NCBI RefSeq assembly: GCF_014696615.1
Contig: NZ_JACJQJ010000016.1
Coordinates: 1-64,000, forward strand
DNA length: 64,000 bases
DNA from: Nostoc linckia FACHB-104
GTDB lineage: Bacteria > Cyanobacteriota > Cyanobacteriia > Cyanobacteriales > Nostocaceae
Direction of reading: 5' to 3'
The stretch's first letter is position 1; each line of letters starts with the position of its first letter. The translations under genes were made by a program, and so were the position numbers. The notes under the pieces were generated by a model that ran no database searches, was not told the DNA's origin, and saw only the letters and a list, made by a program, of their open reading frames with translations. Below are positions 39,999 to 51,331 of the stretch, piece after piece.

Positions 39999-40898
39999 TC
40001 AGTCTTCCTTTTTCCCAAACACCATTTGTAAAATCATGGGAACGCCGCCTTCTTGGTGATACCTATCTGCCCAAGCACGGATCACTTCGTCCAGCTCTTC
40101 TAGAGCCTGTTCTAAGCGTTCTGGCGGAATATCAAGCTCTTCCAAAGCTCGCATAGAATTTGGTCGCTTTTCTGCCCAATCTTTCATCAAGCGGAAATAC
40201 CGGGCGGTATCTTCGACCATGATATAGGTGCGCTCTTGGTCGTCAGCCGGCGCATAGAAAGGACGGGTGAGTGCATAGAACGGCATTCCCCAGGGAGAAT
40301 CAATGCGTGTCACCGTACCAGAGTACAGCAGGCGGCGCTTGATATGTTCCGCTAAAGCTTCACTCAAAGGCATTTGGTGCTCGGGGGGCATTTCCTCCTG
40401 CGATCGCTTGTGCAAAAATTCAATTAGCTCAAGAAACTCAAAAGAGGTAATTAACTGAGCATCGGGAAGATTACTCGGTAATTTATGCTCGATTTGTTTC
40501 TTTTCCTCGGTTGTCAGACTTGTACCGGGAATGCGTGATTTCCCAGGCCGCCAAGGAAATTTTTCCATCCAGACATAAGGCAATTGAATTAAATAGCGAG
40601 GTTCCTGAGAACCCAGCATTTTCAGCAATTTACCTTCAGTCAGGGCTTGTCTGACTTCCTCAACAATGATTTTGACCCGTTTCGGTTCTAAGTGGTGTAA
40701 ATGACCAGTCATTCGCAGGTTTTGCCCTTGCTCTAGATAGGTCATGTAAATTGCACATTTGGCTGCTGTAGCCGCTGCATCTAAAAATGCCCCATGCCTG
40801 TGCCCACTAGTCCGCATAGCACTAAAAGCCAGATAAAGCATGATCTGATCCATCGCACTGGGGCCAAGACGTTTGATCAGATCTATGTCGTTACTCAT
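39999..40898 (-). CDS. hetR: Heterocyst differentiation master regulator HetR
   Basis: 299 residues, the exact length of Anabaena HetR, and almost unchanged at the N-terminus ([20 protein letters not shown]). Residues known from mutant or structural work are all in place: C48, S152, S179, R223, and the inhibitor-binding patch R250, L252, E253, E254, D256 and D270. The N-terminal DNA-binding domain, flap and hood domain are complete. HetR dimers or tetramers activate hetP, hetZ, patS and hetR itself after nitrogen loss; RGSGR peptides from PatS, PatX or HetN block DNA binding. Upstream lie 1.4 kb without genes, as expected for its multi-start promoter. patX lies about 10 kb away. Confidence 0.99.
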
Positions 40899-42072
40899 AT
40901 AACAGACAGTTAAATAGCACGTTTACAAATTTATTAGCCGTAGGAAAGTAAGTAGTATACACCTGACTGAAGGCAATATTTTCACTTCAGATGATTTATT
41001 ATGCTTCAAGTATGAAGTTCTTGCTAGTCAAAATGATGAAATTAGGTGTAATTTCAGACACATACTTGAGAAAAATGTATTTACTGTATTTTATATAACT
41101 TATCTCCGTAATATTACTACCATTTTTTAGCCCTCCATTCCTTTACTGTATTTCTAAAATTGGGTTTTTAGGAAAAATCAGCTGATTAGGCTGTATAAAA
41201 ACGCTTAGTTTCGTCTCAATAATATTTCGAGCCAGGTTTTTAATTACTTTAATACTGGACTATGCTTAATCAAGTTATAAAAAAACGTTTCTAAATTACG
41301 TAATTCAATATAATTAGCTACTAGGGAAAGCCGCAGAGAAATTTGCAATTGAACAATCGGTATCAGCAACCGATGATTCAATTTTGGCTAAAAAATTTAA
41401 AAATCAAGCTGCCAAATTTCACAGATGAGGTGTTTTGAATCCATCACTGCAAAACTTTTTACTGTTAACCATTTCAGTAATTTGTCAATTGCTAAAATGG
41501 CAGATCATAGCATTGCTATCTCATTTGTTAAAAAAGTACATTTGTACGTCTTTTTTCCCTTTTCCCTACCTCAACGAGTAGTTTTCACAACTCAGGTAGG
41601 ATTTGCTATAACAAATGAAGCTTGATAAATCAGATTTTCAAGTCCTTGTATTTATTTGCTTGGAAATATTATTCATTTATTTTAGCATTTTTCTTTACTT
41701 TTACTTATATCAAGTAAGAGATTTTAATTTTTTTCATAATTATTATTTGATTTTTTTATATAAAAAGTAAAATTAAGTTTAGTTGATATTTGTGCAATTA
41801 ATGCTGTCTGGCAATTTCATTTGATGGTTGCAATGAATTGCTTCGGGAGAAGCATGTGAAAGGAAATCAGGAACAACGCTAGATAACTATGGAATCAATA
41901 ATGGTAGGTATATTTATTTATCTAGTCCTTTGGACTAAAGAATAGGTCAAGACAATAGAATTATATATCAATCATAGACGATGAATTATGCGTTATCTTA
42001 ATTAGCAAAAAAATATGTAGCAAAACAATATACAAAAATCAATGACTCAGAATCTAAAGTTTTCTATTTATA
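40899..42072 (-). promoter_or_regulatory. Long hetR upstream region
   Basis: 1.2 kb of AT-rich DNA without a believable gene; the 66-codon ORF at 41425 looks spurious. In Anabaena hetR is transcribed from several starts spread over about 700 bp upstream, so most of this is probably promoter and leader. No GTA-N8-TAC (NtcA) site or TCCGGA element was found by eye close to the gene. Confidence 0.5.
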
Positions 42073-42192
42073 TATAGCAATCCTATTTCAGTTGTGATAA
42101 ATATCGGTTTTGGCTGTTGACTGTCAACGGTTAACAGTTAACAGTTAACAACCCTTCAGAGCAGATTTCACAAATCATTTAGGATTGCTATA
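42073..42192. mobile_element. MITE-like element, copy 1
   Basis: 120 bp bounded by perfect 13-bp terminal inverted repeats TATAGCAATCCTA / TAGGATTGCTATA, with further imperfect pairing inward (TTGTGATAAA / GATTTCACAA). The centre is a GTTAACA-type heptamer array. It is nearly identical to the element at 45355-45467. It has no coding capacity, so any movement would depend on a transposase elsewhere. Confidence 0.7.
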
Positions 42193-42301
42193 GATAATAT
42201 ATTAAGAATTTATTTTTAGATTATATTCCCGAATTATTTAAATAATTCAGGAATATGTATAGAGATAACTTTCACAAATTAGATAGTAATTGCATTGCAA
42301 T

Positions 42302-50987: not shown

Positions 50988-51031
50988 AGTTGATTTTTAT
51001 TCAGTAAAAAAAAACACGTTTTAGGGAATTG

Positions 51032-51037
51032 TCCGGA
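51032..51037 (+). promoter_or_regulatory. TCCGGA (DIF-type) element upstream of patX
   Basis: TCCGGA 57 bases before the patX ATG. In Anabaena this hexamer near -35 marks promoters switched on early in differentiating cells after nitrogen loss, and is reported upstream of patX genes. A -10-like TAAGTA lies 15 bases downstream, shorter than ideal spacing. Confidence 0.55.
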
Positions 51038-51094
51038 TGCAGTAATAAAAACTAAGTAGGGAGGAATAAGACAGTTTTAAAATAAACATCTGCT

Positions 51095-51331
51095 ATGCGT
51101 GCTGTAGTTTCACTTTTAGCCTCTAGTTTGGTAGCTGTTTCCTTCGCTATCAACTGTCAAGCTACGATCAATCAATTCTCACGTTTGTTACCATCCTCAT
51201 CTGGCTCAGAACAGTTGCTCTCAGCCAGACCCAAGCCCAAGCCTAACCAGCCAGAAAAACCTGTACCGCATCGCGGTAGTGGGCGTAGAGAACTGATCGA
51301 ATCCTACAAAAATGTTCATCCTGCCGTTTGA
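51095..51331 (+). CDS. patX: PatX, RGSGR-containing heterocyst-inhibitor precursor
   Basis: 78 residues. A signal peptide covers about 1-24 (RAVVSLLASSLVAVSFA...), then a Ser- and Lys-Pro-rich spacer (ARPKPKPNQPEKPVP), then HRGSGR with RGSGR at residues 60-64, followed by a 14-residue tail RELIESYKNVHPAV. PatX is the small exported protein found with HetR across filamentous cyanobacteria; its pentapeptide, released by processing, binds HetR and blocks heterocyst formation in neighbouring cells. The motif here is the RGSGR form, identical to PatS-5. A TCCGGA promoter element is upstream. hetR is about 10 kb away. Confidence 0.9.
   Translation: MRAVVSLLASSLVAVSFAINCQATINQFSRLLPSSSGSEQLLSARPKPKPNQPEKPVPHRGSGRRELIESYKNVHPAV

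Follow-up and report, generated by a model that had tools for sequence, protein, structure and literature searches.

A stretch of 64,000 nucleotides of Nostoc linckia FACHB-104 (assembly GCF_014696615.1, contig NZ_JACJQJ010000016.1, positions 1 to 64,000), hereafter the window, was analyzed for the locus that carries hetR, the gene of the master regulator of heterocyst differentiation, and patX, the gene of the precursor of a peptide inhibitor of HetR. This locus is very probably the standard HetR/PatX module in the layout of the heterocyst family, with intervening genes that look like remnants of two older clusters and do not form a cassette for processing of the peptide. Comparison with cyanobacteria outside this family suggests that hetR and patX once lay side by side, and that both their arrangement and one letter of the patX promoter changed in the heterocyst lineage. 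The HetR/PatX pair itself is textbook knowledge, and its layout is already implied by the published coordinates of Anabaena PCC 7120.

The hetR-patX locus in the window

Both genes were identified far above the NCBIfam cut-offs, in agreement with a sequence-only reading of the window that had proposed an activator/inhibitor pair with hetR on the minus and patX on the plus strand. HetR matched NF009718 over its full length (622.8 bits, cut-off 489), contains the Pfam domains Peptidase_S48 (PF03574) and HetR_C (PF18460), and gave one match in the whole assembly. The closest HetR proteins among named relatives were those of Calothrix membranacea FACHB-236 and Nostoc carneum NIES-2107 (both 99%). 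PatX matched NF047413 with 87.5 bits (cut-off 30) and has both the hydrophobic N-terminus and the RG(S/T)GR near the C-terminus, as determined from the sequence and a composition filter. The same reading had described an exact RGSGR at residues 60–64 with a 14-residue tail behind it, and a separation of ~10 kb. The motif and the tail (RELIESYKNVHPAV) were confirmed, and the gap between the end of the hetR match (40898) and patX, which are divergent, is 10,197 bp. From hetR, the order is sepJ, PHO4, zinc dehydrogenase, GNAT, excisionase-type helix-turn-helix (HTH) protein, PF12831 flavin adenine dinucleotide (FAD) oxidoreductase, and patX. The features of the locus are as follows:

39999..40898, minus strand: hetR, master regulator of heterocyst differentiation, 299 amino acids (NF009718; Peptidase_S48 and HetR_C)
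40899..42301, minus strand: hetR upstream region, the 1,403 bp between hetR and sepJ (motif scan)
42302..44575, minus strand: sepJ (fraG), septal junction protein, 757 amino acids (EamA at residues 604–740; assigned by homology and its place beside hetR)
45540..46850, minus strand: PHO4-family inorganic phosphate transporter (PF01384, E 3.5e-111; reading frame extendable back to a TTG at 46925)
46965..48011, minus strand: zinc-binding dehydrogenase (ADH_N and ADH_zinc_N)
48162..48605, minus strand: GNAT acetyltransferase, local cargo (PF00583)
48647..49090, minus strand: excisionase-type HTH protein, variable slot (TIGR01764/HTH_17)
49218..50987, plus strand: FAD-dependent oxidoreductase, 5′ neighbor of patX (PF12831)
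51004..51017, plus strand: NtcA-like site GTA-N8-CAC, one mismatch to GTAN8TAC, 28 bp 5′ of the DIF1 motif (motif scan)
51032..51037, plus strand: DIF1 motif TCCGGA, 63 bp 5′ of the patX start codon (motif scan)
51095..51331, plus strand: patX, 78-residue precursor with hydrophobic N-terminus (NF047413, 87.5 bits)
51269..51286, plus strand: HRGSGR hexapeptide, PatX residues 59–64 (from the sequence)

The sequence-only reading had named the zinc dehydrogenase, the GNAT-HTH pair, and the FAD oxidoreductase correctly, but it had missed the PHO4 transporter and had taken sepJ for an EamA exporter. Judged from its build, this protein is SepJ/FraG. It consists of a conserved N-terminus, a long extramembrane part, and permease/hydrophobic segments from about residue 415, and its N-terminus is near-identical to that of a 751-residue homologue that adjoins hetR in locus L127 (numbers with G, L, g, and f are our handles for genomes, loci, genera, and families). 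The published SepJ has 751 residues with the permease at 412–751 (PMC6282017), and in PCC 7120 SepJ is Alr2338, whose gene adjoins hetR (alr2339; PMC4192349, PMC6282017). A septal localization of the N. linckia protein is predicted from its identity as SepJ. The FAD oxidoreductase gave two weak matches in the PDB, both to the nucleotide-binding stretch. No RNA family reached the gathering threshold between 35 and 54 kb of the window.

Judged by its sequence, PatX would act as a released heterocyst inhibitor in N. linckia. The tail behind the motif has 14 residues in 45 of the 67 heterocyst-family PatX open reading frames (ORFs). It is not universal, as 11 of 33 PatX-like ORFs from outside the family stop exactly at RGSGR. 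RG[ST]GR was present in 3 to 9 copies in 7 of 46 outside-family PatX proteins versus none of 66 in the family; eight outside loci in all (L180, L231, L234–L237, L240, and L241) encode such multi-copy forms, which resemble a polyprotein hormone precursor. PatX is probably not the sole inhibitor in this genome, since a PatS candidate, MLINSSDERGSGR, ending in DERGSGR-stop, is encoded on another contig (G000:C165:4133-4153, L223). PatS and HetN have the RGSGR pentapeptide in common with PatX but are distinct genes with distinct precursors, and these are likely cleaved in the cytoplasm, whereas PatX is exported (PMC12756182).

Linkage and gene order in the heterocyst family

HetR was found in 214 and PatX in 210 of the 217 heterocyst-family genomes. 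Linkage was assessed in the 105 genomes that were among the best 150 of 217 for both proteins, a sample that leans to close relatives; 38 of these have hetR and patX on different contigs and stand outside the 67 same-contig genomes. Among the matches listed, to which all linkage counts and distances within the family refer, hetR and patX lie within 30 kb of each other in 52 of the 67 genomes, at distances of 5.0–18.5 kb, and 49 of these 52 close pairs have the divergent layout of the window. Because short contigs favor nearness, a tally was made by hand on contigs longer than 2 Mb, where 19 of 33 pairs lie within 30 kb. At random places in a 7 Mb genome, ~1% would be expected (our own arithmetic). 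The closeness of hetR and patX is not due to chance. According to the coordinates printed for PCC 7120, with patX within 2,805,907–2,811,405 (PMC7761841) and sepJ at 2,818,434–2,820,689, the layout of the window is also present in the model strain, spanning ~10–16 kb by our own arithmetic. There, too, sepJ (alr2338) adjoins hetR (alr2339), and all2333, which is probably the FAD oxidoreductase, adjoins patX (asl2332). The model strain differs from the window in its PatX hexapeptide, which is HRGTGR there and HRGSGR in the window, and in the TCCGGA promoter of its hetR, which the window lacks.

A conserved neighborhood had been anticipated by the sequence-only reading, and the opposite outcome, an intervening gene set conserved in no relative, was not found. 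In the 51 near relatives fetched with the pair close together, sepJ and PHO4 always lie between hetR and patX; the FAD oxidoreductase does so in 48, the zinc dehydrogenase in 45, and GNAT in 4. In the other three (L093–L095), the FAD oxidoreductase lies beyond patX and not between the pair. These three loci, all of genus g17, have the FAD oxidoreductase, patX, PHO4, sepJ, and hetR on one strand, without the zinc dehydrogenase, which is probably a secondary rearrangement. The slot between the zinc dehydrogenase (or PHO4) and the FAD oxidoreductase measures from 38 bp to 8.5 kb and contains HTH relatives in 20 of the 51 genomes and a 208-residue protein without a Pfam match in 16 of the 51. A PIN-domain reading of a slot protein was rejected, as no Pfam match was obtained. 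The GNAT and HTH genes of the window (48162–49090) are 41 bp apart on one strand and look like a toxin-antitoxin-type pair in this variable cargo slot. The outer flank is soon lost, with the polysaccharide deacetylase present in the 3 kb or less covered beyond patX in 6 of the 51 near relatives.

The FAD oxidoreductase lies directly 5′ of patX in 64 of 67 heterocyst-family PatX ORFs, and the three exceptions (G156–G158) belong to one genus. On the other side of the block, 110 of 116 distinct loci have sepJ as the immediate 5′ neighbor of hetR in the same orientation (82 of 85 and 63 of 67 when counted in two sets that overlap). Distinct loci were counted after repeats had been removed by identical sequence around the hetR start, as the earlier sets overlap in genomes. 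Fourteen genomes with the pair more than 30 kb apart on one contig were also fetched. Here hetR still has sepJ nearby in 12 genomes and the zinc dehydrogenase in 10, and patX has the FAD oxidoreductase nearby in 11. The break is located between the zinc dehydrogenase and the FAD oxidoreductase in 10 of the 14; the exceptions are G012, G038, G071, and G075, and in G012 and G038 hetR is parted from sepJ.

Arrangement outside the family and the patX promoter

For comparison with the heterocyst family, 36 large and 20 short hetR loci were taken from the 161 HetR-bearing outside genomes, which belong to other families and orders of class Cyanobacteriia. The first 12 outside loci were picked for having a PatX match; of the 20 short loci, 13 had the FAD oxidoreductase beside hetR and 2 had no PatX-like ORF. 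In 31 of the 36 large outside loci, hetR is preceded within 2.5 kb by a same-strand RG[ST]GR ORF. Such an ORF lies directly 5′ of hetR in none of 125 distinct heterocyst-family loci (0 of 76 and 0 of 85 in overlapping sets). The FAD oxidoreductase is directly 5′ of 14 of 33 outside PatX ORFs. Among the 93 outside genomes with listed matches for both, 46 have it 0.5–2.1 kb 5′ of hetR; G272, with the two genes on different contigs, is counted among the 93. Of the 119 outside genomes listed, the eight of genus g158 gave no match to the FAD oxidoreductase. In five outside loci (L161, L167, L172, L175, and L206), the zinc dehydrogenase is also part of the hetR/patX cluster.

Matches to sepJ were obtained in all 36 outside genomes, and sepJ is 5′ of hetR in none of 35 loci; where there were several matches, the long-frame match (564–737 amino acids) was taken. 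PHO4, found in 22 of the 36 genomes, adjoins sepJ in 13 of the 22 and does so on the same side as in the window in 10. In the 11 of 36 outside genomes that have both on one contig, hetR and sepJ are at least 108 kb apart. These outside clusters, taken together with the sepJ/hetR layout inside the family, make the block in the window look like a fusion of two older clusters. One of these would have been FAD oxidoreductase/patX/hetR, in some genomes with the zinc dehydrogenase, and the other PHO4/sepJ. They would have been joined in the heterocyst lineage when hetR moved from its place 3′ of patX to one behind sepJ. One simple inversion was considered for the whole rearrangement and is not supported: in all 36 outside genomes, sepJ and hetR are either on different contigs or separated by at least 108 kb. 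Nor did the 13–18 kb covered beyond the zinc dehydrogenase in L201–L204 yield PHO4 or sepJ, and at least two steps seem needed.

In a HetR tree of 73 chosen rows, a branch with support 100/98 set the 37 chosen heterocyst-family rows apart from all others. As for the direction of change, we infer that the tandem order patX-hetR is ancestral. The published case of Leptolyngbya sp. BL0902 (GFS31_32390–32400), which has both genes, agrees with a tandem state: hetR there is immediately downstream of patX and apparently co-transcribed (PMC11298460), whereas the two genes of the window are divergent and 10 kb apart. This was the only paper that a literature search returned for patX beside hetR.

In the window, the DIF1 motif stands downstream of the FAD oxidoreductase and ahead of patX, so transcription of patX probably starts from a promoter of its own. 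Upstream of patX, 82 of 84 heterocyst-family members carry the hexamer TCCGGA (66 of 68 and 16 of 16 in two sets), and 51 of 54 outside members carry TCCTGA (48 of 50 and 3 of 4). The motif is 60–63 bp from the start codon in 66 of 68 heterocyst-family loci. In the first set, the start codon was picked with a preference for one having the motif; a plain hexamer count gave TCCGGA in 66 of 100 heterocyst-family loci, many of which are without patX, and TCCTGA in 47 of 56 outside loci. The second set comprised 20 small loci and used a relaxed peptide pattern, by which G540 was let in with RGEGR. Its 16 heterocyst-family members with TCCGGA include G169 and G096, the first to branch in the HetR tree; three f2 genomes with hetR parted from patX keep TCCTGA, and G540 has neither hexamer.

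An NtcA-like site (GTAN8TAC with up to one mismatch) precedes the motif by 26–31 bp in 65 of 66 heterocyst-family promoters versus 0 of 46 outside, and a control place gave 0 and 0. The site is missing in 2 of the 16 family members of the second set, G176 (L251) and G177 (L250), both of genus g44 with 4.1 and 3.8 Mb, and both keep TCCGGA. DIF1 is reported (Elhai and Khudyakov 2018, abstract) to lie at most about 69 nt upstream of patX, with an NtcA-type site before it in heterocyst formers. The literature search returned no account of a relocation of hetR or of the patX promoter letter and no paper joining TCCTGA with heterocysts; Elhai and Khudyakov 2018, which was outside the search, may report the patX-hetR adjacency or the T form of DIF1.

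A scan of the hetR upstream region of the window (40899..42301) gave no TCCGGA, no GGGN5CCC, and no exact GTAN8TAC. In PCC 7120, hetR has a TCCGGA promoter and its heterocyst-specific expression depends on the DIF1 motif (PMC7377430), and in genus g53, taken as the PCC 7120 clade, TCCGGA lies ~309 bp 5′ of hetR. DIF1 upstream of hetR was rejected as a trait of the heterocyst family, with TCCGGA within 800 bp in just 10 of 86 and 12 of 79 loci (overlapping sets).

Alternative readings and the origin of the layout

By homology with PCC 7120, nitrogen starvation would turn patX on in differentiating cells through the NtcA-like site and the HetZ-dependent DIF1 promoter. PatX would then be exported by Sec and trimmed by PatP to the hexapeptide, which would reach HetR in neighbor cells and block its DNA binding, so that these cells stay vegetative. 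On the same grounds, the HetR of the window is expected to bind DNA and the RGSGR peptide. SepJ, encoded beside hetR, would be part of the septal junctions, the presumed route of regulators. PatX of PCC 7120 itself bears a Sec signal, the peptidase PatP (Alr1666), encoded far from asl2332 by locus number, carries out its maturation, and the PatX hexapeptide binds HetR and stops its DNA binding (PMC12756182). Maturation through Sec and PatP in that strain explains the process without any gene between hetR and patX.

Neutral linkage is a serious possibility, if one that falls somewhat short of probable. Here, an old cluster would have decayed slowly with chance rearrangement, and the promoter letter and the relocation of hetR would be separate accidents on the same long stem branch. 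This is consistent with the parting of hetR and patX in f2 and f6 genomes as well, with TCCTGA kept in the three such f2 genomes, and with in-family distances that range from 5 kb to several Mb. It accounts less readily for the retention of the sepJ-hetR junction (110 of 116) and of the promoter letter (82 of 84), unlike the outer flank.

It is quite improbable that the intervening genes work together as a cassette for export, modification, or maturation of PatX, and this proposal of the sequence-only reading is not supported. The constant presence of sepJ and PHO4 between the pair in near relatives, and of the FAD oxidoreductase in 48 of 51, would fit a cassette. So would the position of the FAD oxidoreductase directly 5′ of patX, which is also seen where patX and hetR are parted, and its higher frequency in genomes with hetR (157 of 190) than in those without (78 of 198). 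These 78 class genomes without hetR nevertheless led us to reject the FAD oxidoreductase as a dedicated partner of PatX. GNAT is local, PatX of PCC 7120 leaves through Sec and is matured by PatP, and patX probably has its own promoter. In 10 of the 14 family genomes that were fetched for a widely separated pair, the zinc dehydrogenase is found near hetR and not near patX. The intervening gene found linked in print to cell-cell signaling is sepJ, and the link is through the septal junctions, of which SepJ is a component, rather than through any processing activity (PMC6282017). That the patX ORF is a chance RGSGR frame, as its shortness and the lack of a Pfam family match might suggest, can practically be dismissed, given its NF047413 score, the occurrence of PatX in nearly all heterocyst-family genomes, and the motif 60–63 bp upstream in 66 of 68 loci.

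Several observations weigh against the preferred reading, in which the block is the family's standard HetR/PatX module with the remains of two older clusters between the pair, or against the history drawn from it. Close linkage is not required, since 14 of the 33 pairs on contigs longer than 2 Mb are more than 30 kb apart, and sepJ is not 5′ of hetR in 6 of 116 distinct family loci. In one of these six, G012, from the window's own genus, hetR is apart from a sepJ-PHO4-zinc dehydrogenase-FAD oxidoreductase-patX block (L135, L136). The outside sample was not random, and 5 of its 36 large loci have no patX 5′ of hetR. PatX was found elsewhere in four outside genomes with parted hetR, G238 and G561 (f2) and G513 and G540 (f6), with patX beside the FAD oxidoreductase in G238, G561, and G540 despite the parting; G498 had no PatX match in the outside-genome listing. 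As hetR has left patX in outside genomes too, the separation is not peculiar to heterocyst formers. TCCGGA is present in two outside genomes, G513 and G556. The published DIF1 promoter of hetR is not transferable to N. linckia, as the upstream region in the window is without TCCGGA. Knock-out transcriptomes of BL0902 gave no sign that PatX acts through HetR (PMC11298460), which makes it less likely that PatX and HetR in tandem already formed an inhibitor circuit. Loss of patX alone leaves the pattern of PCC 7120 unaltered (PMC7761841, PMC12756182).

A further step, which we consider tentative and rather unlikely, is that heterocyst patterning arose by rewiring of an older, self-limiting patX-hetR unit. 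On the stem of the heterocyst formers, TCCTGA would have become TCCGGA and the NtcA site would have been gained, while hetR would have been freed, given a long upstream region, and put behind sepJ. If this is true, the uncoupled transcription of activator and inhibitor would turn a filament-wide brake into a system of local activation and long-range inhibition. The comparison adds a testable account of the changes in this locus at the origin of heterocysts, namely the promoter letter, the nitrogen-control site, and the move of hetR. Each of these changes can be reversed or swapped in tractable strains such as Anabaena PCC 7120 and Leptolyngbya BL0902, which opens the origin of a developmental pattern to experiment.

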